Shown here: one piece after another, positions 17,146-32,483 of the stretch
Position numbering within the stretch: the first letter of the stretch is position 1
Layout: each line of letters starts with the position of its first letter
DNA from: Jutongia hominis
Lineage (GTDB): Bacteria; Bacillota; Clostridia; Lachnospirales; Lachnospiraceae
DNA: 32,483 nt
Assembly (NCBI RefSeq): GCF_014384965.1
Contig: NZ_JACRSW010000029.1
Span: 1 to 32,483 of the forward strand
Direction: 5' to 3'
Translations under genes and position numbers: made by a program
The notes under the pieces: model-generated
Database searches by the model: none
Seen by the model: the letters and a program-made list of their open reading frames with translations, nothing else
What the model was told of the DNA's origin: nothing

Positions 17146-17405
17146 CAAACGAACAGCATCAGCTTTTAATGTATATTGATCAGATCAGCTTTGCTTTGGA
17201 TGATACAGTGCTTTTCCTTGATACACATCCTTGTGACACGGAAGCACTTGCTTATTATCAGGAATTAAAAGAGGAGCGGAAGATGGCAATGGAAAAATAC
17301 GCTTCCAAATTCGGTCCATTGCAAAATGATAATGTAAAATGTGGCTGCTCCTGGAGCTGGGTTGAAACTCCGTGGCCTTGGGAATTAGAAGGGAGGGATT
17401 GCTAA
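17142..17405 (+). CDS. cotJB: Spore coat protein CotJB
   Basis: An 87-residue protein of the CotJB family, recognised by LLMYIDQISFALDDTVLFLDTHP and the C-terminal WSWVETPWPWE. The start at 17142 follows GAGGAGGTG and lies in the ATGA overlap with cotJA. In-frame codons upstream at 17103 belong to the cotJA overlap and lack a ribosome site. Its TAA shares one base with the cotJC start. Confidence 0.93.
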   Translation: MTNEQHQLLMYIDQISFALDDTVLFLDTHPCDTEALAYYQELKEERKMAMEKYASKFGPLQNDNVKCGCSWSWVETPWPWELEGRDC

Positions 17406-17719
17406 TGTGGAATTATGAAAAGAGATTACAATATCCTGTGCATATTACACGCACAAATGCAAAAGCAGCACAGATAATAATGAGCCAATACGGTGGTCCT
17501 GACGGTGAAGCCAGTGCATCCATGCGTTATCTGACCCAGCGTTATTCAATGGAAAACCGGGCTGTCATTGGCACATTGACCGATATAGGGATATCCGTTA
17601 TGATAGCGACCACTATCTTAACACATATAAAATGCATTATCTTGATGCATAATGCATATAAAATAGAGTTTTTCACGGATTTGGATTCGGACAAAACGGT
17701 AATAATTTTACCGTTTTAG
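17405..17719 (+). CDS. cotJC: CotJC, 5' part, interrupted after codon 62 (chimeric reading frame)
   Basis: The first 62 codons are the N-terminus of CotJC, a manganese-catalase-like spore-coat protein (normally about 190 residues): MWNYEKRLQYPV, QYGGPDGEASASMRYL and the end TLTDIG. At that point the sequence departs from the family and runs 42 unrelated codons into the element's left end, stopping at 17719. The fragment retains the first metal-ligand glutamate (in GGPDGE) but lacks the E-x-x-H pair that follows TDIG. The missing remainder is at 32347-32483. RBS GGGAGGG precedes the ATG. As it stands the product should be inactive; excision of the element would restore it. Confidence 0.93.
   Translation: MWNYEKRLQYPVHITRTNAKAAQIIMSQYGGPDGEASASMRYLTQRYSMENRAVIGTLTDIGISVMIATTILTHIKCIILMHNAYKIEFFTDLDSDKTVIILPF
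17579..17589 (+). repeat. attL core of the cotJC intervening element
   Basis: ACCGATATAGG, identical to 32347-32357 in direct orientation and in the same codon phase of cotJC (T-D-I-G). Left of it is cotJC, right of it is element DNA. On the element side, 17591-17612 forms one arm of the reconstructed attP inverted repeat. Confidence 0.88.
17591..17612 (+). repeat. Left-end arm of the attP inverted repeat
   Basis: The reverse complement of this segment matches 32333-32354 at 17 of 22 positions, including ten consecutive bases (ATAGCGACCA, 17603-17612, against TGGTCGCTAT, 32333-32342). In the excised circle the two arms flank AGGG. Confidence 0.75.
17632..17657. repeat. ATGCAT-rich inverted repeat inside attL
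   Basis: ATGCATTAT (17632-17640) and ATAATGCAT (17649-17657) are exact inverted repeats with a third ATGCAT between (17645-17650). They lie 43-68 bp inside the left boundary and could bind an accessory or directionality protein. Confidence 0.4.
17693..17717 (+). terminator. Hairpin at the end of the chimeric cotJC frame
   Basis: AAAACGGTAA (17693-17702) pairs with TTACCGTTTT (17708-17717), and the stem overlaps the stop codon at 17717-17719. The downstream bases are only moderately T-rich. It would end cotJ transcription inside the element's left end. Confidence 0.6.
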
Positions 17720-17763
17720 ATTGCAATTTTTGGTTTTTCATGTCGATTAGTGTTATTTTTTGC

Positions 17764-17791
17764 AAAAAGTGGCGGTTTCCCGCCACTTTTT
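17764..17791. terminator. Bidirectional terminator between cotJ and the recombinase
   Basis: AAAAAGTGGCGG (17764-17775) pairs with CCGCCACTTTTT (17780-17791) across a short loop. With T runs in both directions it serves the recombinase (its stop overlaps at 17790) and transcripts coming from cotJ. Confidence 0.85.
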
Positions 17792-19439
17792 ATTTGCTGT
17801 TTCTATCAACAAACTCTGTTTCCAATATCTCCGTCCGAAAATTCGCTCCGTTTCCGGTAGAGTGGATCCTAAGCTGTATGCCAAAAGGCAGCGATTTTAG
17901 CCATACCACAAGACGGTTACAGCCTCGTTCTTCTTCCCGGTACACAACGATTTCTTGGAGAATTTCACGATACAGCATCTCATTTTGGTCACCATCACCA
18001 AAGCTAAGAATTTCGTCCAATGCTTTTTCCAACAGGTCTGTCTTCTCTTGATCTATTCTGTAAAGTTCCTGCTTTTGTCTGCTTTGCGAAATAAGCTCCT
18101 GCAAATGTGTAATCTCTTTATCATACCACTGTATCTGCCTATATAAGTCGTCTTTCGATAGCTTATCATCCAGCATCATATCAAATGCTTTTCGTTTTTT
18201 TGCTTCTATGACACCAATTTTTTGTGTTATCTTATCCATGTCGATCAATAATTCTGATGTATATCTTACTTTTCTGACATTTTCTAATATCTCTTCTCGT
18301 ATTCGCTCTTTATCTTTCTGATCGCAAAGCAGATCATTACAATATTTCATACAGCTAAACAATGCACGTTCATTGATACTGCGATTTGAACAGCCTATTT
18401 GCTGCCCTTCGAGAATCTTTGCTCCTCCATGGCGTGATTTTTGAAAACACCACCATGCACGATATGTTCCAGACTGTAGCTTTCTCGTTCGGCTGATAAA
18501 GCGGCTGCCACACTCACCGCAACGAATTTTTCCGCTGCACCAGTAACGATTGCTATGTCTTTCCTTCGAACGATACAAAGAAGAACGTCTTGCCAGCTCT
18601 TCCTGTGTGCGATTCCACAACTCCCTGGCAATGATCCCCTCATGATGATTTTTTATGTAAATTTTTTCTTCCTGACCGCGATTATATTTTTTCTTGTGCG
18701 TCAGATAATCCGGAGTAAATGTCTTTTTCTGACACAGATCTCCAACATATTTTTCATTATGTAAAATTCGCAAAATGACAGTACCCGACCACTCTTCCAT
18801 ACGTTTTGGGAAAATACCTTCTTCGTGTAATTCTCTTGCAATCGCAAATGCACCTTTTCCCTCATTCGTATATTTATGAAAAATGGATTTTACGATCAAT
18901 GCCTCTTCTTCCTGAATGGATAATATACCATTTTTTACTGTATAGCCCAGCATATCTCTGCCGAAAACAACGCCCTGCTCCATGCGCCTTTTCTGTCCCC
19001 ATTTCACACGCTCGGAAGTCTTGCGGCTTTCCTCCTGTGCCAGACTTGCCATGATCGTCAAACGCAATTCACCATCCTGATCGCGTGTATCGATATGGTC
19101 GATCGTAAAAATAATGCCAACACCTGCTTCTTTCAGCTTTCGTGTATACGCAAGTGTATCTACTGTATTTCTTGCAAAACGAGACACCTCTTTTGTTAAG
19201 ATCAGGTTAAATCTCCCTTGCAAGGCATCTTCGATCATTTGCTGAAAACCGATTCTGTTACGAATCTGCGTTCCGCTGATTCCTTCGTCATAATAGATTT
19301 TGGTCAATTGCATATTTTGTTTTGCATTGATATATTGTGCAAAGTAACTTCTCTGGCTTTCGAGTGAATGCATCTGATCCTCTTTTTCTGTAGATACTCT
19401 GGCATAAGCAGCCACACGTAAAGGTGTCTGATACTCCAA
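17790..19439 (-). CDS. Large serine recombinase (SpoIVCA-like site-specific recombinase)
   Basis: A 549-residue large serine recombinase. The N-terminal resolvase domain (about 1-150) has AAYARVST with R14 and catalytic S16, plus SRFARN and the QEESRKTSERVKWG helix. The Recombinase domain follows (about 160-280; GYTVKNGIL, AFAIARELHEEGI). A zinc-ribbon segment (CGECGSRF, further C residues to about 350) and a C-terminal coiled coil (about 390-490) complete the family layout. It starts with TTG five bases after AGGTGA and directly after the stop of the small upstream gene. Its 3' end is about 200 bp from attL. It is the obvious enzyme for integration and excision at cotJC. SpoIVCA, which removes skin from sigK, has the same architecture. 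Confidence 0.95.
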   Translation of the reverse strand: MEYQTPLRVAAYARVSTEKEDQMHSLESQRSYFAQYINAKQNMQLTKIYYDEGISGTQIRNRIGFQQMIEDALQGRFNLILTKEVSRFARNTVDTLAYTRKLKEAGVGIIFTIDHIDTRDQDGELRLTIMASLAQEESRKTSERVKWGQKRRMEQGVVFGRDMLGYTVKNGILSIQEEEALIVKSIFHKYTNEGKGAFAIARELHEEGIFPKRMEEWSGTVILRILHNEKYVGDLCQKKTFTPDYLTHKKKYNRGQEEKIYIKNHHEGIIARELWNRTQEELARRSSLYRSKERHSNRYWCSGKIRCGECGSRFISRTRKLQSGTYRAWWCFQKSRHGGAKILEGQQIGCSNRSINERALFSCMKYCNDLLCDQKDKERIREEILENVRKVRYTSELLIDMDKITQKIGVIEAKKRKAFDMMLDDKLSKDDLYRQIQWYDKEITHLQELISQSRQKQELYRIDQEKTDLLEKALDEILSFGDGDQNEMLYREILQEIVVYREEERGCNRLVVWLKSLPFGIQLRIHSTGNGANFRTEILETEFVDRNSK

Positions 19440-19616
19440 TCACATCACCTCATTTTGCAAAAGGATATTTAATTGGCTGTCAGATATCATTTTTTTGTCA
19501 TACAGTTGCTTATAAATGCCTCGTTTTAATACCTTTTCAAAGGATTTCTTGGTGTCAAAAGGAATACGCTCGTTTCCCCGGTCATCTATTGTCTTCATAC
19601 TATGTTCTTCATTCAT
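19440..19616 (-). CDS. Small protein coupled to the recombinase; candidate directionality factor
   Basis: A 58-residue acidic/basic soluble protein whose TGA is directly followed by the TTG start of the recombinase, so translation is coupled. The C-terminal half (KQLYDKKMISDSQLNILL) looks like a short two-helix SHOCT-like segment. The family is not recognised with certainty. The start at 19616 is preceded by AGAG only; an ATG at 19634 has no ribosome site. Serine recombinases need a small recombination directionality factor for excision, and a coupled small gene is a plausible one, but this is inference from position. It could equally be an accessory protein of another kind. Confidence 0.65.
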   Translation of the reverse strand: MNEEHSMKTIDDRGNERIPFDTKKSFEKVLKRGIYKQLYDKKMISDSQLNILLQNEVM

Positions 19617-19698
19617 AACAACTCTATTCTCCATTTTTATGATCAGACGCGATCGAATGCTTTAAAGGTGGTTGTTTTAATATACAACAAGTGCCTGC

Positions 19699-19727
19699 TT
19701 TTTATGTCATTTTCAGAGAGATCATAT
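19699..19727 (-). promoter_or_regulatory. Weak sigma-E-like promoter of the recombinase operon
   Basis: On the minus strand ATATGAT (19727-19721), 14 bases, then CATAAAAA (19706-19699) have sigma-E-like spacing but a poor -10 match. It lies about 65 bp before the small gene. It is reported only because skin recombinases are sigma-E dependent. Confidence 0.25.
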
Positions 19728-19828
19728 CATGGATTTTGCTTCAGATTCACGATTCTATTCTTGTAAAGCTGTTCCTACAAAGTCATTCTTACAAAACTTT
19801 TCATCCTGCTTTATAAAAATAATCAGCT

Positions 19829-19855
19829 CATTTGTTTGCTAAACACAAACAAATG
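19829..19855. repeat. Short hairpin in the 19635-20054 spacer
   Basis: CATTTGTTTG (19829-19838) and CAAACAAATG (19846-19855) form a perfect 10-bp stem with a seven-base loop. It sits between divergent genes and has no clear T run. Confidence 0.45.
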
Positions 19856-20054: not shown

Positions 20055-20651
20055 ATGGAAAGTAAAGCTAACACAAAACAGAAAGATAATATGCAGGAAA
20101 ATAACCGATTTAATAACGATAAAATCTATAAAAACATTAAACTTCCTTTAAAATCACTTGCTCTTTTTATTTTTATTATGTCATTCGCAATTGATAAATT
20201 ATACAGTTGTGCCTATCATGTTAATGATGCACCGGCACAAGTAAGTGCCGCACCGGTCGTTCCTACGTCAAGTCCATTTATAGATGCAAATACCTGTACA
20301 CTTGTTACATATGACAAGATCCAGACCGGTTCATTTGCCGGCTCCTATGTATTATTAGATATTGTTATCGGTAATATCAAAGACAATAAACTAATCGAAT
20401 CTGTCTCCTTCGATGCCTATTACAAAACCCAAAATGGGTATTTTAAAGATGAAGATATTTTAATTGATTATTCCGAACAACCGAAATTCAAAAAGATACG
20501 CAATTTAAAAAACGGAACAACTATACGATCTTGTTTATATGTAGAAACCGACAATTCATTTGGTGATGAGATCGCATCGTATAAAGTTTTAAAAAAGAAG
20601 AGACTAGATATTCATAAATTAAAAACAATAGCTAAAAAGCGTCTTAAATGA
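20055..20651 (+). CDS. Exported or membrane-anchored protein of unknown function
   Basis: A 198-residue protein not recognised as a known family. Residues 1-30 are polar, and 34-50 form one hydrophobic segment (SLALFIFIMSFAIDKL) that would act as signal anchor. A short Ala/Pro/Ser linker follows, then a beta-rich domain of about 110 residues (TGSFAGSYVLLDIVIGNIKDN and on) that resembles an immunoglobulin-like or DUF4352-like sandwich in pattern only. The C-terminus is lysine-rich. RBS GAGGAG precedes the ATG. It is the only long gene on the plus strand within the element and has its own terminator. Confidence 0.75.
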   Translation: MESKANTKQKDNMQENNRFNNDKIYKNIKLPLKSLALFIFIMSFAIDKLYSCAYHVNDAPAQVSAAPVVPTSSPFIDANTCTLVTYDKIQTGSFAGSYVLLDIVIGNIKDNKLIESVSFDAYYKTQNGYFKDEDILIDYSEQPKFKKIRNLKNGTTIRSCLYVETDNSFGDEIASYKVLKKKRLDIHKLKTIAKKRLK

Positions 20652-20696
20652 TACAGGTCAGAAAGTAATCTGACAGATTATCCTTCTGACCTGTAT
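20651..20696 (+). terminator. Hairpin after the 20055 gene
   Basis: ATACAGGTCAGAA (20651-20663) and TTCTGACCTGTAT (20684-20696) form a perfect 13-bp stem starting at the stop codon. Only a short T-poor tail follows, so termination may be partial. Confidence 0.6.
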
Positions 20697-20796
20697 ATCA
20701 TTTCCGGTTAGCATGAAACACTATTTTATTCTGTTTAATAATTTCATCAAACGCAATAAAGACAGTATTTATCAACGTAATACCTGCTAACCTATT

Positions 20797-21219
20797 TTAA
20801 TAAAAATACCCATTCGTTACATTACTCTGGTCAGCACCTTTAAATTTTGCTTTGAATTTTTTCTTGCCTGCCAATTTGATCGTTGCTGTGTATTTTCCGC
20901 CTGCTCTGCTCCAGCCCTCTCCCGGTGCAGACATATAAAGTTTTTTAAACGTAAGTTTTGCCGTATTGTTACCGGTTACTTTGTAAGTTCCGTAGTCCTT
21001 ATTCCTCCAGCCTTTTAAAACGACAGTACCATTTTTCTTGAATTGGAATGTATACTTTGAGCTATATGCCATAATAGGATCATCTACCTTGTTTGACCAT
21101 TTCTTTGCAATCAGCAATTTCTTTGTCTGTGACTTAGATGCTGCATTTACCGAGACAGGCAGGATCATTGCAGCACAGATTAATAGTAACATTCCAATCA
21201 TTTTTTTACTTTTTTTCAT
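20797..21219 (-). CDS. Small secreted beta-rich protein of unknown function
   Basis: A 140-residue secreted protein with a signal peptide at 1-27 (MLLLICAAMILPVSVNA, cut probably before or within ASKS). The mature part is short, lysine-rich and beta-patterned (YTFQFKKNGTVVLKG, DYGTYKVTGNNTAKLTFK), like small lipocalin-type exported proteins, but no family is certain. The start at 21219 has AAAGGAGC five bases upstream; an upstream in-frame ATG at 21246 does not. It lies about 100 bp beyond the first transglutaminase-like gene on the same strand. Confidence 0.75.
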   Translation of the reverse strand: MKKSKKMIGMLLLICAAMILPVSVNAASKSQTKKLLIAKKWSNKVDDPIMAYSSKYTFQFKKNGTVVLKGWRNKDYGTYKVTGNNTAKLTFKKLYMSAPGEGWSRAGGKYTATIKLAGKKKFKAKFKGADQSNVTNGYFY

Positions 21220-21318
21220 AATAAGCTCCTTTCGTATTTGCATCATACAAATATATTATCCCTTAATTGTCACGTTCATTTTCAACTTCTTTTTCCGGTT
21301 CATAACAATTTTCTCACA

Positions 21319-22605
21319 TTATCCCAATGCTGCAAGATCATCCATGATCGAACCATCACCATTCGCATCAAAATATTCATTTCCTTGTGCATCAAACCAC
21401 TGCTTGTAGCCATTACCATTATGCTCATAGACATGGGTTCCATCGCTTTTTACATAAATGCGATTTGTAATATATGGATTACTTGGTCTGGTATGTTTAT
21501 ATGTCCATTCACTCGTTGCATAACAGCCCGGACATTTGCAATTTGTTATCGTGGTCGCGGTTGATCGCGCTTTCGCTCTCTTTTCTGCCGCTTGTTCCAA
21601 CAAAACATCCCTACGGCTCATTCTTCTGTTGACAATATGTACATAACAAGGCTCATGCAGATTATTGACGATCTGCTTTTTGGAATATTTGTCCGTATGA
21701 TAGCGGGAAATAGACGCATTTAAACTATAACCGTGTGCTGTTGTATAAATGCCATGCCAATAAGGTTTTCCATTCTCATCTGTCGCTTTTACGACACACC
21801 ATGCATGATCGATCGTCTCGCACGATACATATTTTGTTTTCAAACCTACTGCACGTCCTATATCATATGCAATCTTTCCGCCATCTGCACAAACTCCGGC
21901 AAATTTACCATTATACAGTTTTTGAAACTGTCTGTTAAATTTCACTGGGCTGTCACAGTTAGAATAGATCCAACGTTGGTTCATTCGATAATGCGAACGG
22001 GAATGCACATATACTTCAAGGATCAATGCTTTTTTCTGCGAAGTCGTCAGCTTTTTATAAATATCTTCTTCCTTATATCTTTCATATTTTGCTGTTGTAT
22101 GGTTTTCACCTTCAAAATCCGTACTACGTTCATAGAAAAACTGATACGTGTGTGATTTATTTGCCATATCACGTTGTTCCCATTGCTCTAACGATTTTTT
22201 CAACCCAGCATCCGGATTGGCAAGCAGAGGTTTTAATTCCTTTTTGATCTTATCCAGATAATTTGTCTCTGTTTTAAATGTAATAACCTGTGTTCTTCCA
22301 TTTTCATAATAAACCTTTACAGCCTGCTTTTTCCCCATATCGGCACCGGATAGTACAAAAATATACTTATTATCGTTTGGAATCAAACGAACTTTGAAAT
22401 TCTTATCTTTGCTGATCTTTTTTACCTTTTTAACAGGGCTTTTTGTCTGATGGATCTTGTTCTCCATCGTTGCCACAACTCGTACTGTCTTTGCTTTGTA
22501 AGGTTTCTTCGTCTTTGCATCTGCACATTGTGCCTGAAAGAGACCAAGCACAACCGCAAATAACACCACAACAAACGTTCCAATATGTTTTACCGCTCTT
22601 TTCAT
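21319..22605 (-). CDS. Secreted transglutaminase-like protein 1
   Basis: A 428-residue exported protein. The signal peptide is at 1-30 (FVVVLFAVVLGLFQAQCADA). Residues 35-115 form a beta-rich N-terminal domain. The region 185-300 is transglutaminase-like, with candidate nucleophile C239 in FAGVCADGG and H267 in DHAWCVV. The usual third-residue DPTW-type segment is replaced by IYTTAHGY, so activity is not assured. The C-terminus has a CPGC pair and an HNGNGYKQWFDAQGNEYFD motif. The chosen ATG at 22605 follows AGGAG by seven bases. It is a clear paralogue of the 27838 gene. Such proteins cross-link or trim surface or coat proteins; the role here is inference. Confidence 0.82.
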   Translation of the reverse strand: MKRAVKHIGTFVVVLFAVVLGLFQAQCADAKTKKPYKAKTVRVVATMENKIHQTKSPVKKVKKISKDKNFKVRLIPNDNKYIFVLSGADMGKKQAVKVYYENGRTQVITFKTETNYLDKIKKELKPLLANPDAGLKKSLEQWEQRDMANKSHTYQFFYERSTDFEGENHTTAKYERYKEEDIYKKLTTSQKKALILEVYVHSRSHYRMNQRWIYSNCDSPVKFNRQFQKLYNGKFAGVCADGGKIAYDIGRAVGLKTKYVSCETIDHAWCVVKATDENGKPYWHGIYTTAHGYSLNASISRYHTDKYSKKQIVNNLHEPCYVHIVNRRMSRRDVLLEQAAEKRAKARSTATTITNCKCPGCYATSEWTYKHTRPSNPYITNRIYVKSDGTHVYEHNGNGYKQWFDAQGNEYFDANGDGSIMDDLAALG

Positions 22606-22811
22606 AAACATTCTCCTCTCTCCATAAAAAATATTTTCCCGATACCTTCTCAAAAGAACTCTCTTCTATCTGTTCTTTCCACTATTATTTGTTACCTTTC
22701 TCATAATTGCATCTTTATACAGTACAAATGAAATCTACTCCGAAACTTACATACATCCTAAAAGTCTGGTTTTTTATCTCCTGTTTCGAAGTATTGCTCC
22801 TTTTTTGATAC

Positions 22812-24026
22812 CTACATATCCTCCAAGAATTCATCTGCGTCAAATTCCTCTAATGTTTTCTCTTCCTTTTTTGTCCGGGCAAGCTTCGAAAGCTTTGTAT
22901 TTTGCATAAACTTTTCTGTATTAAACAAAACCAATACATCCGTAATATCCGAATACTCGCTTTGGATCGTGCCGATCGGTGTTTTCCCATATCGATAGTC
23001 GATGAGGATAATATGGTCATAAGACTCTGTCAAAAACGGCACAAAACAGTTTGCGAAAGAATCTTTGATCAAAAGCAGTGTTTTCCCTGTCTTTGCCTTT
23101 GTTGTAATCTCCATTTGAAATGTATTCTTAGACAAAAAGACATCATAACGATTGAATCCTTTTTTTGCTGCTTTTGGGAAATACAACGTATCTGCTTTTA
23201 CTTCTCCCTGATCCATGTTGATATGAATCTTCTGCGTATCTTTTGTATTATGGAACAAAACGACTTCGTCTTTTGGAACAGCGACATGTACTTTGTTATA
23301 TGTTGTACCATAAAAATCATCAAAAACTTTTTCCTGCTGATAATGCTTGATCGGATACTCTTTTGCCTGACCGGTACGCTTTGCCCACTCCTGATATGCA
23401 TAGAATGCACCAAGCGTCGTCCAATGATGATCGGTACGATAATAGATATATTCTTTTTGGTGCTTTTGCATCGTATCTTTCAGATTCAAAAGGATCTTCG
23501 GATCATTTAACCCTTTTTGAATCGAATCAAGTACATCTTTTGGCTCCTGTGCGCTGACATAGGACGGCAGATAATCAGACATTGCAAGCGTCTTAGACGG
23601 AACCATCATACAGCTTACATGTCTCTTTCCGTATTCTTTTTCCATATCATTTAGAAAAGAAGTCAGGGTATCAACATTCTCTTTTACCTGCTGTTTATCA
23701 AGCTGCTCTGTATCGTTTTTTTCAAGCAGATATCCTTTTTTGCCAATATAGACACCGTTAATGTCCTTTTTCCCAAGCTTTGTCTGAAGCGCAACGGCTG
23801 CATCTACCCAACGGTCACGCAGCGGAAACTGGTCATTCAGATAGTTTTCATATTCTGTCTGAAACGTCCCTTTTGTAAAATTCTTCTTCGTAAGCTTTGG
23901 TTTTTGCTGTAATTGTCTGTTTTCTAAATCAGAATATTTCTGATCAGGAAGAACAGTTATCGCAAGGCTGCCACTAAAAAGCATAATACAAAAGACAGCC
24001 ACCATTATAATCTGTAATTTTTTCAT
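22812..24026 (-). CDS. DHHW protein (AlgX/AlgJ-like, SGNH-fold partner of MBOAT acyltransferase)
   Basis: A 404-residue extracytoplasmic protein with an N-terminal signal anchor (residues 4-26). The diagnostic motif TDHHWTTLGAFYAY has D199, H200, H201 and W202. An IKDSFAN segment later in the protein supplies the serine of the SGNH-like site, and ENRQL is near residue 36. Members act outside the membrane with an MBOAT protein to place acyl groups on polysaccharides, as AlgX/AlgJ do in alginate acetylation. The MBOAT gene ends 18 bp upstream on the same strand. Confidence 0.88.
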   Translation of the reverse strand: MKKLQIIMVAVFCIMLFSGSLAITVLPDQKYSDLENRQLQQKPKLTKKNFTKGTFQTEYENYLNDQFPLRDRWVDAAVALQTKLGKKDINGVYIGKKGYLLEKNDTEQLDKQQVKENVDTLTSFLNDMEKEYGKRHVSCMMVPSKTLAMSDYLPSYVSAQEPKDVLDSIQKGLNDPKILLNLKDTMQKHQKEYIYYRTDHHWTTLGAFYAYQEWAKRTGQAKEYPIKHYQQEKVFDDFYGTTYNKVHVAVPKDEVVLFHNTKDTQKIHINMDQGEVKADTLYFPKAAKKGFNRYDVFLSKNTFQMEITTKAKTGKTLLLIKDSFANCFVPFLTESYDHIILIDYRYGKTPIGTIQSEYSDITDVLVLFNTEKFMQNTKLSKLARTKKEEKTLEEFDADEFLEDM

Positions 24027-24044
24027 TATGATAAAGCCTCCCTG

Positions 24045-25460: not shown

Positions 25461-25474
25461 ATGCCCGTTTCTCC

Positions 25475-25972
25475 TTATATATTCTTCTTGATCGCTGTCT
25501 GTCCTTTGTTATTGCTCTTCTTAGATGGTGACATCGCAATATACCAGACATATTTTCCTTTTTTCCCACATACCGCATTTTGAAATACTTTCTTTTCAGT
25601 GGAAGAATAGTCACTCAGATAGTTGCTCTTACAATTACTCTGTTTGTATTTCTTCAACGTTCCAAACAGACTTTTTGCAGCGGAAACGTTTTTTGCCTTT
25701 ATCACACAAAGACTATATACTTCTTTTGCATCAAATACATATTGCATTTCCCGTACTTTCTTTCTGTCGCTAGAAGAAAGAGCTCCAAAGTCCATTGTTG
25801 CATTTGACTTGTATTTTAACTTTTTTGTACCTCCGGTTGCTTTCAATCCGGCTGCGCAAAGTGCCTTACATGCCGGTTCACTTTTTGCCTGTGCCAAAGC
25901 CTGTGGCAACGTACACGCTACCATTATTGCTGCCATTACAATACAAATCATTTTTTTCCATCTGTTTCTCAT
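25475..25972 (-). CDS. Small exported protein, DUF4358-like
   Basis: A 165-residue secreted protein with a signal peptide at 1-28 (MICIVMAAIMVACTLPQALAQA). The YVFDAKEVYSLCVIKAKNVSAAKSLFGTL stretch resembles DUF4358, a family found beside MBOAT and DHHW genes in Firmicutes. It contains several cysteines and many lysines. It sits between the SGNH hydrolase gene (30 bp upstream) and the MBOAT gene. Family assignment is from pattern memory and moderately sure. Confidence 0.72.
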   Translation of the reverse strand: MRNRWKKMICIVMAAIMVACTLPQALAQAKSEPACKALCAAGLKATGGTKKLKYKSNATMDFGALSSSDRKKVREMQYVFDAKEVYSLCVIKAKNVSAAKSLFGTLKKYKQSNCKSNYLSDYSSTEKKVFQNAVCGKKGKYVWYIAMSPSKKSNNKGQTAIKKNI

Positions 25973-26002
25973 TCTCTTAATCCGCCTTTCTTCCTCTTAT
26001 CA

Positions 26003-27100
26003 TTAATGATCTAATGCTTTATCGTATTTTCCGACCACTTTTCCAAACTGCGTATATGCAGGATTTTTCCAATGATAGCCATCTCCTGCTGCATACTGTG
26101 CTTTCAGATAACCACCGGAATCCTTTAAAAAGTCTGTATAATCCAGATAATTTGCATGAACTTTCTTTGCAAGCTTTTTCAGCTTCTTATTAAAGATCGG
26201 GATCTGCTTCATACCGGTATGCCTTGCACGTTCCGCCCTTGTTACAGGAGATACCGCACAAAGTACAATATCGGTATTCGGGCTTGCCTGTCTGATATAA
26301 TTGATCATATCTTTATATTCCGCGATCATCAGACTGGTCTTGCGATAATGGATCTCATTCATTCCAAGCATCATATAAACACGGTATGGACGCTCCGCTA
26401 CAAGCTTTTGCAAACCGGTTCTTCCATTAAAGATTCGTTTTGTATGGAACGTTACTGTATTTAATCCACGATAAGCTACTGTTTTCTTCTTTGCACTCGA
26501 ATGCATCTGTGGAAATGCCTGTCCATAACCTACTCCCTCGCAGATCGAATCTCCGGCAAATACAATCTTTCTTTTGTATGTTTTCATTTTCATCTGTCTC
26601 TTTTTAGAAGGCACGCTGTCCGATGGTGACAGTTTTTTCTTCTTACAAGCCTGCACATAGAAAGAATAGGCTGTATGATTCTTTAATTTCTTTACCAGCA
26701 GATGTGTATTCTTTGTCACGCCTGCAAGATGATATTTTCCATTCTTCTTTGCATAATAAACACGATAATAATTCGCTTTTTTATGTTTGTTCCATGTCAC
26801 TTTAACTACATGTGTAGAATATCGAAACAGTTTCACACCGGAAACTTTCTTCCATTTCTTCACCTTTGCTGTCGGCTGTACCGTTTCTTTTGGAGCGGAT
26901 GTCTTATTCGATTGAGTCGATGGTGACGCCTCTGTTGTAGAAGTCGGACTGCTTTCCGGCAACACAGCCACAGTATTTTGTGGCTGTTCCTGTGCCTGAA
27001 CCTTGGTCTGATCATTTCCGCTTCCTATGCCAAGGCTGCTAATAAGAATCGAAGCAGCTATTCCTACGCTCCATATATGATGTATCTTTCTGTTTTTCAT
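26003..27100 (-). CDS. Secreted SGNH/GDSL hydrolase with fibronectin type III-like domain
   Basis: A 365-residue exported esterase-type protein. Order: signal peptide (1-36), Ser/Thr/Pro linker (45-78), one FN3-like domain (84-165; VKLFRYSTHVVKVTWNK), and the SGNH domain (178-365) with GDS at 183-185 (S185), GMNE (N248) and the closing DGYHW (D340, H343). It could remove or transfer O-acetyl groups on a surface glycan. The start at 27100 follows GGAGG by five bases; a GTG at 27127 lies upstream. It is the first gene of the acylation cassette, directly downstream of the 93-bp repeat array. Confidence 0.88.
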   Translation of the reverse strand: MKNRKIHHIWSVGIAASILISSLGIGSGNDQTKVQAQEQPQNTVAVLPESSPTSTTEASPSTQSNKTSAPKETVQPTAKVKKWKKVSGVKLFRYSTHVVKVTWNKHKKANYYRVYYAKKNGKYHLAGVTKNTHLLVKKLKNHTAYSFYVQACKKKKLSPSDSVPSKKRQMKMKTYKRKIVFAGDSICEGVGYGQAFPQMHSSAKKKTVAYRGLNTVTFHTKRIFNGRTGLQKLVAERPYRVYMMLGMNEIHYRKTSLMIAEYKDMINYIRQASPNTDIVLCAVSPVTRAERARHTGMKQIPIFNKKLKKLAKKVHANYLDYTDFLKDSGGYLKAQYAAGDGYHWKNPAYTQFGKVVGKYDKALDH

Positions 27101-27203
27101 ATTATCCTCCATTTTCTCGTCGTACACTCTGTAAAAATATTACTGTATATCAAAAATCCATCTCGAAATCTTTCGTTCAAAAGATTCCAAGAGTACATTA
27201 ACG

Positions 27204-27596
27204 TGCATTTTCCTATTCCGTAAATAAGTGCAAAGCCAGCGCTTTGCACTCCAAGAATTGCTAAAGCAATTCTTGTTGATGCACCGCTACCGTACATGCA
27301 TTTTCCTATTCCGTAAATAAGTGCAAAGCCAGCGCTTTGCACTCCAAGAATTGCTAAAGCAATTCTTGTTGATGCACCGCTACCGTACATGCATTTTCCT
27401 ATTCCGTAAATAAGTGCAAAGCCAGCGCTTTGCACTCCAAGAATTGCTAAAGCAATTCTTGTTGATGCACCGCTACCGTACATGCATTTTCCTATTCCGT
27501 AAATAAGTGCAAAGCCAGCGCTTTGCACTCCAAGAATTGCTAAAGCAATTCTTGTTGATGCACCGCTACCGTACATGCATTTTCCTATTCCGTAAA
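27204..27596 (-). repeat. Tandem array: four 93-bp units plus a 21-bp partial unit
   Basis: Units begin at 27204, 27297, 27390 and 27483 and appear identical; a partial fifth runs 27576-27596. Each unit holds two adjacent perfect hairpins: GTGCAAAGC-CAGC-GCTTTGCAC (9-bp stem) and AAGAATTGCT-AA-AGCAATTCTT (10-bp stem). Because 93 is a multiple of three, the minus strand stays open and reads as a 31-residue repeat (MYGSGASTRIALAILG and on). The array lies in the leader of the acylation cassette. It may be a transcribed structured RNA, an attenuator or an intergenic repeat family. Coding is doubted. Confidence 0.92.
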
Positions 27597-27625
27597 AAAG
27601 CAGATCCTACCGACAGGATACTGCT
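27594..27625 (-). terminator. Terminator of the second transglutaminase-like gene
   Basis: On the minus strand AGCAG..TCCT (27599-27608 region) pairs with AGGA..CTGCT (27615-27625), followed by six T (27599-27594). It lies about 210 bp past the stop at 27838 and directly before the repeat array. Confidence 0.7.
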
Positions 27626-27762
27626 TACTATCTATGTAAAACAGTATATCGGTATCAAAATGCATTGTCAATGTGCTTTTCTGCGTTCTAACTCTTGCAA
27701 AAATCCCATTTTGCCGTTGTTTTTATTATTATGATATTGTCATTCGTGCGCACGCATACCAT

Positions 27763-27802
27763 GTGCGTACTGTGTATTATTTGTGCGTACTGTATATTGT
27801 TC
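27763..27802. repeat. Two 20-bp direct repeats
   Basis: GTGCGTACTGTGTATTATTT (27763-27782) is followed by a near copy GTGCGTACTGTATATTGTTC (27783-27802), with a related GTGCGCACGCAT just before. No other feature is seen in the 27626-27837 spacer. Confidence 0.5.
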
Positions 27803-27837
27803 TATCACGATCTTTATCGTTTGGTTTCCTATCCGTT

Positions 27838-29076
27838 CTACAGATACATATCCTCATACAGTTTCTTTATACTCTCCGGGGCATCCAGCCATTCGTTACC
27901 ATCATCATCGAAAAAGCGGATGACACCGCCACCGTTATGTGGATGATACACGATTCCTCCACCTGGTGGGGAAACACCTAAGACTGCCCGGTTTGAAACT
28001 GTTCTATACGGATTCCAGGCGGAATGACTTAGCTTTCCTGTACAGCCGGGGCATTTAATAGTTGCAGCCAAAGCAGGGGTATCTGCCACACGCTCTTTCC
28101 AGTTCTTTGCACGCTTCAGATAATGCAATGCTGTACGGGATGGTGTACGCAAAATAGCAGCAAAACCTTTTAATGTGCCATAATCCTCCTTCTTTAAATA
28201 TTTGTCACTTTTCAGATCATATCCACACGAAGTTGTAAAAACACTCTGCCAGTATTTTGTTCCATCCTTGTCCGTTACTTTTGCAATACACCACGCATGA
28301 TTCAAGTCTGTATTGGAAATAGACTTAACATTTAATCCAACTGCCTTGCCGATATCCATTCCCATATAAGCTCCATCGCTGCATACTCCCTTAAAAGTTC
28401 CGTTATACAACTGCTTAAACTGGTTATTTTCTTTACGGTGATGACAATAGTACCACTTATATTTTTTCGTTCCATTGTAATGCATACGTCCCCGGCAATA
28501 TGCCTCCAGCACCAATGCTCTTTTCTGGGAAGTGGTAAATGTTTTCAGGATTTCATCAATGGTAAATGTCTCTGATACCTTTAATTCCTTTCCGTTGGCA
28601 TCTTCATAATCCCGATGCACACGGAATTCGTATTTTAATTTAGAATTCCGCTTGATCAGTTTTTTCTCCCACTGTGCCAGTGCTGTGCGAAGTCCCTTGT
28701 CCGGATTGGCAAGCATTGGCTTTAATTCTGCCTTGATCTTATTCAGATAATTTACTTCTGTCTTGAGATTGATCTTCTGCGTTTTGCCATTTTGAAAATA
28801 AACTTGAACTGCCTGTGTCGTATTACAATCGGTGTCCGATATCTTAATACGATATTTCCCTGATAGGATCTTGATCGCAAATGCCTTATTCGTGCTTACT
28901 TTCTTTACCTTTTTAATCTTGTTGCTAAATGCATATGTCTTTGACTTGTCCTCTACAACTTTGATCGTTTTCGTTGCATATGCTTTTGCCGCTGCCGGTA
29001 CTCCGATCCATGTTACAAACAGTAGAATTGCTATCCCCCAAAAAAACGGTTGCAAAAATTTTTTTCTTATCTCCAT
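27838..29076 (-). CDS. Secreted transglutaminase-like protein 2
   Basis: A 412-residue exported paralogue of the 21319 gene. The signal peptide is at 1-33. The N-terminal domain shares QAVQVYFQNGKTQ and NYLNKIKAELKPMLANPD with its paralogue. The transglutaminase-like core has C232 in FKGVCSDGA and H260 in NHAWCIAK. The Asp-containing segment is again replaced (VFTTSCGYDL). The C-terminus has a CPGC pair and ends with HNGGGVIRFFDDDGNEW. RBS AAAGGAG precedes the ATG. An ECF-type promoter 20-55 bp upstream matches the one before the sigma-factor gene, so it is a likely target of that sigma factor. Confidence 0.83.
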   Translation of the reverse strand: MEIRKKFLQPFFWGIAILLFVTWIGVPAAAKAYATKTIKVVEDKSKTYAFSNKIKKVKKVSTNKAFAIKILSGKYRIKISDTDCNTTQAVQVYFQNGKTQKINLKTEVNYLNKIKAELKPMLANPDKGLRTALAQWEKKLIKRNSKLKYEFRVHRDYEDANGKELKVSETFTIDEILKTFTTSQKRALVLEAYCRGRMHYNGTKKYKWYYCHHRKENNQFKQLYNGTFKGVCSDGAYMGMDIGKAVGLNVKSISNTDLNHAWCIAKVTDKDGTKYWQSVFTTSCGYDLKSDKYLKKEDYGTLKGFAAILRTPSRTALHYLKRAKNWKERVADTPALAATIKCPGCTGKLSHSAWNPYRTVSNRAVLGVSPPGGGIVYHPHNGGGVIRFFDDDGNEWLDAPESIKKLYEDMYL

Positions 29077-29099
29077 AAGTCATCTCTCCTTTCTTTTAC

Positions 29100-29131
29100 T
29101 TATATGACAAGTCAAGTTGCAAAAAAGTTTT
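29100..29131 (-). promoter_or_regulatory. ECF-type promoter of transglutaminase-like protein 2
   Basis: On the minus strand TAAAACTTTTT, 12 bases, TGTCATATA. The same words with the same spacing precede the sigma-factor gene (31349-31381). The AAACTTTT -35 and GTCATA -10 resemble ECF-group promoters. Confidence 0.75.
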
Positions 29132-29157
29132 AAAAAAATCAATTTTTTTGATTTTTC

Positions 29158-29177
29158 ATACTCAATGCATTGAGTAT
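29158..29177. promoter_or_regulatory. Operator 1: perfect 20-bp palindrome
   Basis: ATACTCAATGCATTGAGTAT is exactly self-complementary. It lies between the divergent starts of transglutaminase-like protein 2 and the XRE gene, upstream of the ECF-type promoter. It is one of four related sites. Confidence 0.7.
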
Positions 29178-29266
29178 ATAGAATATTAAGATTACCGTCA
29201 AGATTACACTCCCTGCCATTACGCAGCTTAATACATATTTTCTGTTTTCAGAATAAAAATAATAAT

Positions 29267-29304
29267 ATACTCAATCTATTAAGCATGCTCAAAGTATTAA
29301 ATAT
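29267..29304. promoter_or_regulatory. Operators 2 and 3 in the XRE gene promoter
   Basis: ATACTCAATCTATTAAGCAT (29267-29286) and ATGCTCAAAGTATTAAATAT (29285-29304) are degenerate copies of the palindrome at 29158, overlapping by two bases. They lie 40-75 bp before the XRE start, suggesting autoregulation. Confidence 0.62.
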
Positions 29305-29342
29305 GTTATGGTCATCATATAAAAAGGAGTGCGCATGATCTT

Positions 29343-29546
29343 ATGATTTCTTATAAACCGTTTTTTGAAACTTTGGCGAAAAAAAATATTTCAGAATATG
29401 AATTGATCTTTAAGCAGGGGATTTCAGCCAATACTATCCACCGTATCAAAAAAGGAGAAGCCATCACGACAAAAACTCTGGATACCCTCTGTTTTATTTT
29501 AGATTGTTCCGTTTCGGAAATTCTTGAACACGACAAGACCAAATGA
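29343..29546 (+). CDS. Small XRE/Cro-type transcriptional regulator
   Basis: A 67-residue single-domain helix-turn-helix protein. Helices 2-3 are in SEYELIFKQGISANTIHRIKKGEAITTKTLDTLCFILDCSVSEIL, the standard Cro/CI pattern. It presumably binds the ATACTCAATnnATTGAGTAT sites nearby and at the right end. The strong AAGGAG at 29323-29330 is spaced for an ATG at 29335, which opens a three-codon frame whose TGA overlaps this gene's ATG (ATGA), so start may depend on reinitiation. It is divergent from transglutaminase-like protein 2 and convergent with the sigma operon. Confidence 0.85.
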   Translation: MISYKPFFETLAKKNISEYELIFKQGISANTIHRIKKGEAITTKTLDTLCFILDCSVSEILEHDKTK

Positions 29547-29548
29547 AA

Positions 29549-29585
29549 AGTATAGGAGCAGGATATCATGTCCTGCTCCTGTACT
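29549..29585. terminator. Bidirectional terminator between the XRE gene and the sigma operon
   Basis: AGGAGCAGGA (29554-29563) pairs with TCCTGCTCCT (29571-29580), extended by weaker outer pairs, with short T runs on both sides. Confidence 0.82.
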
Positions 29586-29586
29586 T

Positions 29587-29787
29587 TCATTGATAAGAAG
29601 AAAATTTCTCTTGCTTTAGGGTTGCAATCTTCTTTTCAAAGAAAACAACCAGATCTTTTCTTTCCTGTATGACAAATTCTTCCGCCATACACAAAAGTTC
29701 TTCTTTGTGTTCCTGAAAAAATCCATCCGGCAGATTGCCAAGTGTCTCCATGATCCCGGTCATGCGTGCCAGTTCCATTGCATTCAT
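29587..29787 (-). CDS. Small hypothetical protein in the sigma-factor operon
   Basis: A 66-residue mainly helical, soluble protein (MNAMELARMTGIMETLGNLP and on) of unknown family. The start at 29787 follows AGAGGTGG, which itself lies just after the TAA of the sigma gene (29798-29800). Tight placement suggests a role connected with the sigma factor, possibly as a regulator, but nothing in the sequence proves it. Confidence 0.7.
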   Translation of the reverse strand: MNAMELARMTGIMETLGNLPDGFFQEHKEELLCMAEEFVIQERKDLVVFFEKKIATLKQEKFSSYQ

Positions 29788-29797
29788 GACCACCTCT

Positions 29798-31330
29798 TTA
29801 TTTCTGCTTGTACTTTTCATAGGCTTCTTCCAATCCGGACAAATCCTTGCGGCTCTTCATTTCCGGCAATGCTTTCATGCCTTTTGGCCAGTATTTTCTG
29901 TGATCCACTTCAGAACCGGCAGCACATTTGTATGCTTTCTCTTTGCACTTCATCTTTCCATTTATAATGGTGTAGTTATATAAATGACCATCATACATAG
30001 CTCCTGTATCACCATAATAGTCATCACCGGTTTCTACAATTACACCCGGCTTTCCGGGACGGTAATATAACCCGTTTTGAACAGAAATGCCTGCCAATTC
30101 ATCTAACAGGTACACCCCTTTTTCTTCGGAATACGAATAGAACCGATACATTTCATCATATCTGGAATCACCATAATGCAAATAAATGATCAATTCAGGA
30201 ATATTATCTTCATTCATGTCATGCAGCAGATAGTCATAATCCGTAATATGTACCTTTTGCCCTTCGTTCCACATGTCGTCCATCGTAATCTGTCTGCTCA
30301 GGAATTTTTTATAAGCTTTCTTCCACTTATCAGCCAAAGGTACCGGTGTGGCTGTAGGTTCCGGTGTCTTTGTCGGCTCTACAGTAGCCGTTGGCGTGGC
30401 AGTCGCTTCCCTTTGCTGTGTCGGTACTATTGTCGCTTTGTCAGGACTTGTCTGTCCCAGAACAACGCCCACAATCCCAAGTCCAATACCGCCTATCACA
30501 GCCACTCCTGCTGCTGCCATGGTAATTTTACCGGCCATTGAATTCAGGAATTTCTTACCGGCTGAAGCAGTTTCCATACTTTCTGCTGCTTTTGGCAGAT
30601 TTTGCAATCGCTCTAAAACCGTATTGATCGGTGGGATCACCAGTCTGCCACTCGCAAGAAATGCATTTTCCTCGCTTTCTAATAAGAACAAAAGCAAAGG
30701 CAATGGTGCCATACTGTAGAGTTTGTAACCCCGTTTTTGCAATTCTTCGGACTGCTTTTTAATCCCTTTTCTTCCGTAATTCAATCTGGACTTAACCGTA
30801 TTTTCGGAACACTCCATAGCTTGGGCAATTTCCCGGATACTGGCACCCTCCAGATGAAACATCAAAATACACATCCTCTGATCTTCCGGCAGCGCATCGA
30901 TCATAGTCCGCACCATTTCCTGTGTTTCCTTCTCTGTGTATGCTATTTCCGGCTGTCTGCTTACATCGGTGTCCTCCCATTGCATTTCCATGGTCTCTCC
31001 TTCATCATTGACACCATCCAAATCTGAAAAAAATACCATTTTCTTTTTTTGCAAAGCATTTTTCGCTGTGTTGGCAACAATCATGCCCAGCCAGCCGGGA
31101 AATTTATCGGGTTCCTTTAACGTATCCAATTTTGAAAATGCCTGCACATATGCATCTTGCAAAACATCCTGTGCATCCGAATCGTTTCCCATATACTTTT
31201 TTGCTATGAAAAACTTTTTCTGGTAGGTACTCTGGTACAAAAAATTATACCCTTCCTGCCTGCCGGCAAGTGCCTGTGAAACCGCCAGAACGTAATCCGG
31301 ATTGTTTCCTATTTGTTCATTGCTATACAT
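29798..31330 (-). CDS. Membrane-tethered ECF-type sigma factor with exported C-terminal domain
   Basis: A 510-residue fusion. Residues 25-95 are sigma region 2 (AQDVLQDAYVQAFSKLDTLKEPDKFPGWL). Residues 135-192 are region 4 (LPEDQRMCILMFHLEGASIREIAQAM, then ENTVKSRLNYGRKGIKK). A linker leads to one transmembrane helix at 269-292 (ITMAAAGVAVIGGIGLGIVG), then a Thr/Pro-rich spacer (303-332) and an outside domain of about 175 residues containing HDMNEDNIPELIIY (369-383), a calcium-loop-like motif common in clostridial exported proteins. No separate anti-sigma gene is seen; the fused tail may take that role. RBS GGAGG precedes the ATG, and an autoregulatory-looking promoter lies upstream. Confidence 0.88.
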   Translation of the reverse strand: MYSNEQIGNNPDYVLAVSQALAGRQEGYNFLYQSTYQKKFFIAKKYMGNDSDAQDVLQDAYVQAFSKLDTLKEPDKFPGWLGMIVANTAKNALQKKKMVFFSDLDGVNDEGETMEMQWEDTDVSRQPEIAYTEKETQEMVRTMIDALPEDQRMCILMFHLEGASIREIAQAMECSENTVKSRLNYGRKGIKKQSEELQKRGYKLYSMAPLPLLLFLLESEENAFLASGRLVIPPINTVLERLQNLPKAAESMETASAGKKFLNSMAGKITMAAAGVAVIGGIGLGIVGVVLGQTSPDKATIVPTQQREATATPTATVEPTKTPEPTATPVPLADKWKKAYKKFLSRQITMDDMWNEGQKVHITDYDYLLHDMNEDNIPELIIYLHYGDSRYDEMYRFYSYSEEKGVYLLDELAGISVQNGLYYRPGKPGVIVETGDDYYGDTGAMYDGHLYNYTIINGKMKCKEKAYKCAAGSEVDHRKYWPKGMKALPEMKSRKDLSGLEEAYEKYKQK

Positions 31331-31348
31331 ATCTTTTCCTCCTTTTAC

Positions 31349-31381
31349 CTATATGACAAGTGCCACGATCAAAAAGTTTTA
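31349..31381 (-). promoter_or_regulatory. ECF-type promoter of the sigma-factor gene
   Basis: On the minus strand TAAAACTTTTT (31381-31371), 12 bases, TGTCATATA (31358-31350). It is the same motif and spacing as before transglutaminase-like protein 2. It lies about 20 bp before the sigma start. Confidence 0.75.
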
Positions 31382-31465
31382 TATTTTCTAAATTTTTTTC
31401 AAAAAAACTAAGATATGGCTATTGTATCATACTTATCCTTTGTAATCAGAGGAGTTTCTATCTTA

Positions 31466-32176
31466 TCAGCCAACCACTTCCGCTCTTACACTGCGGACTC
31501 TTTTGGTCTTTGTATTTTTAAAATCCGCTGTAATAAAAGTAAAGATTCCTTTTTTCAACCGGATCGTTGAATTATTTTTAATCTTTTTGCCACCAGTATA
31601 TCCCAAACGAACCAGTTTCCATCCTTTTTTCGGTTTTACGCTGATTTTTACTTTTGTACCCAGATTGTGTTTCCAAAAGAATGGATGCTTTTTGAATTTA
31701 GAAGCATAATTTTTGCCATTAAAGGAAAATGATGCACATGGATTCCGGTATTTCCATAGTGTGATCTTGGTTGTAAAATGTTTGGTACTTTGTGTGCCAT
31801 CTTTTTCTTTCCATGTCAGATCATAAGAAAGAGTCGTAGTTCCTGCGTTCTTTCTGGTAAAATGAATATCCACTTTGTCCTGAATCTTTGCCTTTACAAT
31901 CTTTGGATTAGAAGATTTCAGGTTGATGATCTTAGCTCCCTTCGGGGTGTGGCTTCCATACAGATACAGATCTTCGTCATCTCCGATTCCCTCATCGCAG
32001 CTCCATACACAACGGGAAGTCGGGTAAGTGATCTTGTCCTGATTTACCGTTGTTTTGACCGTCTGGTCTGCCACCTCTTCTGCTTTAACATTCTGAGGGA
32101 CGAACAGCATAGTGCAAAGAAGCAACACACTGATCCCCCTTTTTCCGATTTGACGCATTTCTCGTTTTGTTTTCAT
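31466..32176 (-). CDS. Secreted protein of unknown function near the right end
   Basis: A 236-residue exported protein with a signal peptide at 1-32 (ISVLLLCTMLFVPQNVKAEE). The middle (INLKSSNPKIVKAK, then NAGTTTLSYDLTWK) looks like a bacterial Ig-like (Big2-type) domain. The C-terminal 90 residues are lysine-rich and beta-patterned. The catalytic role, if any, is unknown. RBS GGAGAAGAAT precedes the ATG. Its promoter region contains operator 4, so it is probably controlled by the XRE regulator. Confidence 0.8.
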   Translation of the reverse strand: MKTKREMRQIGKRGISVLLLCTMLFVPQNVKAEEVADQTVKTTVNQDKITYPTSRCVWSCDEGIGDDEDLYLYGSHTPKGAKIINLKSSNPKIVKAKIQDKVDIHFTRKNAGTTTLSYDLTWKEKDGTQSTKHFTTKITLWKYRNPCASFSFNGKNYASKFKKHPFFWKHNLGTKVKISVKPKKGWKLVRLGYTGGKKIKNNSTIRLKKGIFTFITADFKNTKTKRVRSVRAEVVG

Positions 32177-32223
32177 ATTCTTCTCCTTCCTTGCTATTGT
32201 TTTAGCATTCCTTTTATTTTTGC

Positions 32224-32243
32224 ATGCTCAATATATTGAGTAT
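32224..32243. promoter_or_regulatory. Operator 4 upstream of the right-end secreted gene
   Basis: ATGCTCAATATATTGAGTAT is a palindrome with one mismatch pair. On the minus strand the sequence around it (AATATACTCAAT.TATT.AGCATGC) matches 29264-29288 on the plus strand at all but two positions, so two separate promoters share one extended site. Confidence 0.7.
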
Positions 32244-32292
32244 ATTCTTTCTGACATAAAAAGTCAATAAATGTCTGTTCTTTTCGCAAGGC

Positions 32293-32314
32293 ACTTTTGT
32301 CGGACTTTTGTCGG
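32293..32314 (+). repeat. Tandem 11-bp repeat near attR
   Basis: ACTTTTGTCGG is repeated exactly head-to-tail (32293-32303, 32304-32314), ending 18 bp before the attP arm. It may be an accessory binding site for the recombination machinery. Confidence 0.6.
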
Positions 32315-32332
32315 TTAGGATGTGGGCTGGAA

Positions 32333-32354
32333 TGGTCGCTATTGGCACCGATAT
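32333..32354 (+). repeat. Right-end arm of the attP inverted repeat
   Basis: Mirror of 17591-17612 (17 of 22 positions). Its inner part overlaps the attR core. Confidence 0.75.
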
Positions 32355-32357
32355 AGG
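32347..32357 (+). repeat. attR core of the cotJC intervening element
   Basis: ACCGATATAGG, identical to attL at 17579-17589. Element DNA lies on its left; the remainder of cotJC continues on its right. Confidence 0.88.
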
Positions 32358-32483
32358 TACAGAAGAACTGGCTCATCTCGAAATTGTTGCAACAATCATC
32401 CGCCAGCTCACCAGAAACCTGACACCGGAAGAAATTAAGTCATCGGGCTTTGATAAATACTATGTTGATCATACCCTTGCAAT
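32347..32483 (+). CDS. cotJC: CotJC, 3' part (continues past the window)
   Basis: From the attR core the plus strand reads TDIGTEELAHLEIVATI, then further CotJC-like sequence (QLTRNLTPEEIKSSGFDKYYVDHTLA), to the window edge. The E-E-L-A-H group matches the Mn-catalase E-x-x-H metal-ligand pair. It is the missing continuation of 17405-17590: the codon phase matches exactly through T-D-I-G. In the integrated state it lacks the native start, although in-frame ATG codons occur in element DNA at 32320 and 32332. Confidence 0.93.

Follow-up and report, generated by a model that had tools for sequence, protein, structure and literature searches.

The spore-coat gene cotJC of Jutongia hominis is split by a 14.8-kb insertion that carries a large serine recombinase. 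We analysed a 32,483-nucleotide stretch of this genome (contig NZ_JACRSW010000029.1, positions 1 to 32,483; hereafter the window) and found that the two pieces of cotJC can be rejoined in frame at short direct repeats, and that related recombinases accompany a cotJC broken near the same codon in dozens of other loci. Our data suggest that the insertion is probably a mobile, site-specific gene-intervening element of the skin type, which would be excised in the mother cell.

cotJC is split in the window and its frame can be restored

The genes cotJA (16921..17145; PF11007, E 7.8e-21), cotJB (17142..17405; PF12652, E 3e-31) and the 5′ piece of cotJC (17405..17589) lie consecutively on the + strand, cotJC being the third gene of cotJABC. 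The Mn_catalase (PF05067) match of the frame beginning at 17405 is limited to profile positions 1-64; the piece comprises codons 1-62, with E35 of the GGPDGE motif, and codon 62, in TDIG, falls at 17589, a junction that we compared across loci. A second frame on the + strand, from 32347, matches PF05067 positions 60-89, so that the two pieces are contiguous in the profile. This 3′ piece (32347..32483) runs from codon 59 onward and is covered for about 45 codons, up to the end of the window.

At both joints we found the exact 11-bp repeat ACCGATATAGG, on the same strand and in the same phase. The left copy (17579..17589, +) is the core of attL, the left attachment site, and the right copy (32347..32357, +) is the core of attR; the copies are 14,768 bp apart. 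Since the next letter is G after the left copy (GGG ATA ...) and T after the right copy (GGT ACA ...), the joined gene has the intact reading ...LTDIG-TEELAH.... When the flanks were joined by script, the product gave a gap-free alignment of 311 nt (75% identity) with the intact cotJC of genome G253, which is the single Mn-catalase match there. G253 is the closest relative among 397 genomes drawn, judged by the neighbouring kinase gene (83% identity), which in G253 lies on a different contig from cotJC, and the comparison is one of sequence only. The insertion lies within the coding part of a sporulation gene, and the frame is restorable by recombination at the repeats. We regard the split as confirmed.

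These results bear out most of the original prediction, which had the family match end after TDIG and resume with TDIG at 32347, on the same strand and in the same phase, with an exact 11-bp repeat at both joints; Pfam and the letters themselves agree, with the left end at 17589 rather than 17590. The claim that recombination removes 14,768 bp and leaves an uninterrupted CotJC fits the repeat spacing and the G253 alignment over the codons seen, and G253 also provides the comparison that it had proposed with a relative carrying an intact cotJC.

Most recombinase loci share a break near codon 62

The window recombinase (17790..19439, − strand; 549 aa with a TTG start) has Resolvase, Recombinase and zinc-ribbon (Zn_ribbon_recom) domains in that order and matches the phrog_95 integrase family (E 1.3e-118). 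Its 3′ end faces the cotJC 5′ piece, near the left joint. We scanned for its relatives and placed them in a tree with it; the set of 83 loci consists of the best 80 of 129 confirmed loci from genome contigs (84,980 species) and three from viral contigs. A tblastn match was counted as a break when a 5′ piece ended at codon 58-105 or a 3′ piece started at codon 50-63. By this measure 73 of the 83 recombinase loci have a cotJC piece broken near codon 62 (21 with both pieces, 36 with the 5′ piece only and 16 with the 3′ piece only), which excludes a chance origin of the split in the window. Ten loci had no match, and in two of these (L017, L029) the contig end runs into TDIG sequence.

In 62 loci a junction is no further than 600 bp from one end of a recombinase. 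Compared across loci, the breakpoints are centred on the codon of Gly-62, which immediately precedes the TEELAH motif, and a direct repeat with the same phase is also present at the joints of related loci. In many loci the recombinase adjoins the 5′ piece, in others it adjoins the 3′ piece, and the two states are intermixed in the tree.

Two loci carry two cotJC 3′ pieces for a single 5′ piece (L008:447-313 and 2817-2683, and G065), possibly because of tandem elements. The split-cotJC contigs of L021 and L080 are assigned to metagenome-assembled genomes of Parabacteroides and Sunxiuqinia; these assignments are probably binning errors.

Further break sites and prevalence

A PF05067 search of 16 genomes that carry related elements revealed cotJC in three and even four pieces. 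Besides codon 62 (site II) the gene is broken at codon ~33 (QYGGPD/GE; site I) and codon ~136 (AAE/QKA; site III), in both cases by recombinase clades other than that of site II. The site-III recombinases of three genomes share 61-79% identity with one another and 25-29% with that of the window. Another clade (x8590) breaks cotJC at codon 62 or a few codons after. All of these breaks fall within or next to motifs that can be aligned to Mn catalases whose structures are solved, in which we take E35, E65, H68, E136 and H169 to be the metal ligands.

On the complete chromosome of Blautia parvula (L027, L085, L084) the cotJC pieces comprise codons 1-33, 30-62, 63-136 and 132-197, spaced by ~6.8, 101 (across the record start) and 22.8 kb, with four different recombinases at the joints. 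Because there is a different recombinase at each of its ends, the long stretch may hold more than one element. Among isolates, cotJC is split in Blautia parvula NBRC 113351 and Lactonifactor longoviformis DSM 17459. Automated repeat finding at further split loci gave a full CotJC reading in 8 of 14 rows; the repeats chosen were wrong in L153, L155, L158, L163 and L165, and none was found in L152, whose tblastn end is also off.

We then estimated how common such splits are. We drew 250 genomes from the family to which Lactonifactor (G001) belongs, and 157 had a Mn-catalase match. The 52 of these without a full-length match were picked from the table by hand and searched again, and both sides of at least one cotJC split were found in 47, that is 47/157 or about three in ten (hand count). 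By site, 20 of the 47 are split at I, 23 at II (x8590 type included) and 9 at III, with double splits in G064, G110, G178, G186 and G231. The other five genomes had two adjacent fragments (G044), a weak match only (G124) or one half only (G062, G189, G206). A large serine recombinase was present in all 17 split loci fetched, and its closest query fits the site; in two of these stretches tblastn found the 5′ piece only. In a second draw of 157 genomes, from the class, 108 had a Mn-catalase match, 27 of them none better than 1e-42; these 27 are not all shown as splits among the places listed. A control search matched in 3 of 14 named genomes.

Attachment sites and mobility

The attP site was reconstructed from the two ends of the element. 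Its P′ arm (17590..17616) and P arm (32322..32346) each hold one arm of a 10-bp perfect inverted repeat (17603-17612 and 32333-32342). Dyad symmetry pairs 17 of 25 positions, a value reached by 1 of 2000 single-letter shuffles, and in 12 of 18 other elements it exceeded all 300 of their own shuffles. An open reading frame (ORF) of 64 aa lies directly upstream of the recombinase (19440..19634, − strand). When 14 cargo-side proteins were compared with the 83 loci by tblastn (E 1e-4), this ORF was found in 18 loci and a helix-turn-helix (HTH) protein in three; the remaining 12 had no match within the 10 kb or less per side that each locus spans. Inspection by eye of a motif-filtered list showed, for additional loci, a similar short ORF upstream of the recombinase. 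From its position and conservation the 64-aa protein is a candidate recombination directionality factor or accessory protein.

In 8 of the 13 comparable pairs of loci (leaving aside L038/L043, discussed below) the recombinase had a lower synonymous divergence (dS) than the cotJC 5′ piece of its host, and in the other 5 the dS of the 5′ piece was saturated. The pairs were selected for similar recombinases and so give no rate; two more lacked a comparable 5′ piece. In L006/L008, for example, dS is 0.042 for the recombinase and 1.391 for the cotJC 5′ piece. L006/L008 and L044/L045/L046 have near-identical recombinases in hosts with strongly differing cotJC, which indicates recent transfer. Thus like elements occupy unlike hosts at the same codon, and the sequences indicate that the element is mobile.

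Proposed excision in the mother cell and its alternatives

We propose that the large serine recombinase inserts the element, in circular form, into cotJC at one fixed position, codon 62. Growing cells would then be unable to produce the full spore-coat Mn catalase. In the sporulating mother cell the recombinase, probably with the 64-aa protein as directionality factor, would recombine attL with attR, releasing a 14,768-bp circle and restoring cotJC. Excision would cost the element nothing, because the mother cell dies while the forespore retains the element. Many related gut bacteria have cotJC interrupted at a small number of fixed positions, which suggests that they reassemble it during spore formation. 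Such control has a precedent in C. difficile, where a small skin directionality protein under sigma-E and SpoIIID drives excision (PMC5025042).

We searched for mother-cell promoters in the 450 bp upstream of 77 site-II recombinases. Counts were compared first with single-letter shuffles and then with 200 dinucleotide shuffles, with the opposite strand and in 57 cluster representatives; the values given are those for dinucleotide shuffles. The sigma-E-type -10 CATA[ACT]A[CT]T was present in 36/77 regions (shuffle mean 5.7, max 12; opposite strand 5) and in 21/57 representatives (mean 3.9, max 9; opposite strand 5), and the longer pattern ATA-N14-17-CATA-NNN-T in 27/77 (mean 4.05, max 12; opposite strand 8). 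The composite GKACAA-N8-12-CATA, which we take to resemble a SpoIIID box beside a -10, occurred in 20/77 (mean 0.47, max 3; opposite strand 1) and also upstream of 3/6 site-III recombinases, which belong to another clade; it was absent upstream of 4/4 x8590-type recombinases. A mother-cell promoter learnt from the regions upstream of cotJA was tried and rejected: its strict form fitted 5/53 of them (shuffle mean 2.3, max 7), and for this reason the promoter claim rests on the recombinase regions. Of 64 genomes, namely 63 carriers plus G253, 61 had a SpoIIID match, in some cases itself split, and three had none; in the family draw the match was present in 165/250. Sporulation control of the elements thus appears supported only at the family level.

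The split genes look conserved. Of 3′ pieces reaching codon 180, 50/53 have no stop. The ligand positions are kept in 94/96 (E35), 86/93 (E65), 81/84 (H68), 73/84 (E136) and 72/72 (H169) cases, counts in which a few loci appear twice and residues beyond a junction are included; at least one genome is shared between the locus sets (G110 and L012). The sister species L038 and L043 have one common arrangement. Their nonsynonymous divergence (dN) is 0.000 in the 5′ piece (dS 0.586, 61 codons) and 0.000 in the 3′ piece (dS 0.697, 136 codons), so that the 197 codons compared in the split gene show no amino-acid change, whereas the recombinase has dN 0.180 and dS 1.387. The shared order suggests that this split was inherited, and the gene would therefore have been read as one protein since. 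Other computable pairs of 3′ pieces gave dN/dS of 0.05-0.30, values in which the time before and after insertion is not separable. In both L038 (7208-8316) and L043 (7420-8468), the element that splits one cotJC also contains an intact cotJABC-like copy.

Several observations weigh against excision in the mother cell as proposed here. The recombinase cassette of the window has none of the three promoter patterns, which are also absent upstream of 6/6 site-I and 5/6 spoIIID recombinases tested. A stop is present in 3/53 of the 3′ pieces. L038/L043 was selected from 203 pairs, and the recombinases of this pair seem short. Among the 16 carrier genomes, 9 have another full-length Mn-catalase match: four are intact cotJABC paralogs (G001, G002, G005, G012), two are distant Mn catalases and the remaining three were assigned no type. 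Of 23 5′ pieces on separate contigs, only 3, all at site I, have their contig end no more than 100 bp beyond the junction (hand count), which hints weakly at a population mixed between the excised and integrated states. The excised junction and circle are predicted from sequence alone, and the directionality role of the 64-aa protein is a guess. Lastly, in C. difficile insertional mutants of the CotJC paralogs cotCB and cotD had lower catalase activity and no significant coat defect (PMC11222575), and loss of CotJC may therefore be tolerated.

Some of these points suit the alternative that survives best, although we consider it unlikely: cotJC would be the attachment site of an ordinary integrative element or the remnant of a phage, excised at random or under stress and independently of sporulation, and most cells would tolerate the loss of CotJC. 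Serine integrases often lie inside conserved genes (PMC10083194), cargo varies among the elements, like elements sit in unlike hosts, the window cassette has no recognisable mother-cell promoter, and the C. difficile paralog mutants show no significant coat defect. Against this stand the sigma-E-like promoters upstream of recombinases from two clades, the L038/L043 split gene shared without amino-acid change, and the splitting of a second sporulation gene, spoIIID (see below).

We think it very improbable that the split gene has decayed into a pseudogene, a loss without harm where an intact paralog is present or the host does not sporulate. The four genomes with intact cotJABC paralogs and the three genomes of 64 without a SpoIIID match would fit such decay. 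However, 7 of the 16 carriers have no full-length Mn-catalase match at all, SpoIIID is matched more often in these genomes (61/64) than in the family draw (165/250), and dN is 0 in L038/L043 despite the intact paralog in the same locus. We rejected this reading on that pair, the open 3′ pieces (50/53) and the conserved ligand positions. An assembly artefact joining two unrelated fragments, which might be suspected because the window ends inside cotJC, is refuted because the arrangement recurs in dozens of assemblies made independently, among them those of isolates and the complete Blautia parvula chromosome, and its chance is negligible.

Excision in the mother cell thus remains our preferred reading. 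The recombinase domains, the wide recurrence and the open, conserved pieces uphold the earlier claim of a skin-like serine-recombinase element splitting cotJC. The claim that it is developmentally excised stands in part: precise recombination would restore cotJC and relatives have sigma-E-like promoters, but the window cassette has no match.

Other sporulation genes and the wider reading

We found spoIIID split near codon 42 (STVHKDVT) at L169-L176, which correspond to genomes G037, G241, G202, G160, G105 and G007. In the first four of these genomes both spoIIID halves and a recombinase-type frame ending at the 3′ half are on one stretch each; in G105 and G007 the halves, with a recombinase beside the 3′ half, are on separate stretches. 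Three relatives of the recombinase share a contig with a fragment (L051:3766-4248, L062:11733-12218 and L077:4568-4215) which we take to be the C-terminal part of dipicolinate synthase A (spoVFA). Pfam assigns it a NAD-binding domain, and a flavoprotein lies downstream in L051 and L062; perhaps spoVFA is split in these three loci.

On balance we lean, with less assurance than for the window element, towards a wider reading in which many sporulating Clostridia keep mother-cell genes (cotJC, spoIIID and perhaps spoVFA) in pieces that would be reassembled in the mother cell by element-borne serine recombinases. For cotJC this would mean cuts at three or four fixed codons of the active site, made by several independent clades and leaving as many as four pieces per genome. 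If true, bacteria would have a programmed genome rearrangement that recurs and affects several genes, and mobile DNA would have a general niche in genes that only a dying cell needs. Sporulation gene-intervening elements are so far known from few genes and species. Confirmation of excision in the mother cell would make programmed DNA excision common in the sporulation of gut bacteria, and the annotation of split cotJC as "truncated" would be misleading. The choice of mother-cell genes by these elements becomes testable, and many pairs of recombinase and att site are supplied here.

Relation to known elements

A close parallel is skin, a large serine recombinase element in the mother-cell gene sigK of Bacillus subtilis and Clostridioides difficile. 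Precise excision of skin restores the sigK frame (PMC5025042), as the repeat and frame predict for the window. The target of skin is a sigma factor and that of the window element a structural coat enzyme; unlike skin, the window element has no recognised phage structural family among the 10 proteins tested, and cotJC is invaded at several sites by different recombinase clades, with excision predicted here from sequence. The gin element in gerE of Bacillus cereus ATCC 10987 also lacks phage genes and has a serine recombinase, a directionality factor and a 9-bp overlap at its joints (PMC5595907). It differs in its target and its three recombinases and was studied in one strain; splits of cotJC, by contrast, are found in many species.

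SP-beta in spsM, vfbin in spoVFB and yin in yabG likewise are recombinase-bearing elements that split sporulation genes, although other ones, and are described as prophages or prophage-like (PMC10747680, PMC4191935). The C. difficile phage phi027 excises spontaneously and has its attR beside cotG, which encodes a CotJC-like Mn catalase; there cotG is downstream of attR and unsplit, and the available text describes no reconstitution (PMC11222575, PMC12122855). Durrant et al. (2022) report that diverse large serine recombinases converge on one conserved site in a gene; their main text, as available, has no match for catalase or cotJ (PMC10083194). No element splitting cotJC or spoIIID was found in the literature searched, most subscription journals and all preprints being outside its scope. 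Skin-type elements at several independent sites in cotJC are a new, widespread form of a known kind of element.

Cargo of the element and other features of the window

The G+C content of the element (0.384) is close to that of the flank (0.392). Its cargo spans 20055..32176, and part of the cargo proteins have no Pfam match. On the + strand are a hypothetical protein (20055-20651) and the HTH protein (29343-29546). Those on the − strand include, by Pfam, a DHHW protein (22812-24026), an MBOAT protein (24045-25460), a DUF4358 protein (25475-25972), an fn3-GDSL protein (26003-27127) and an extracytoplasmic function (ECF)-type sigma fusion (29798-31330), together with further cargo proteins at 20797-21246, 21319-22653, 27838-29076, 29587-29820 and 31466-32176. 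PHROGs recognised no phage structural family among 10 element proteins, a set outside which the DHHW, MBOAT, GDSL and ECF proteins fall; its matches were limited to integrase/invertase and weak HTH matches. Prophage-like gene content, usual for skin-type elements although not required (gin lacks it), was thus not found in the window element.

An open frame at 27097-27576, between two cargo genes, encodes a 31-residue repeat in four nearly identical copies; this may be a tandem repeat of the DNA and not a protein. In the leftmost part of the window (151-1653) lies a protein that resembles a type I restriction-modification methylase subunit, with a score below the curated cut-off.

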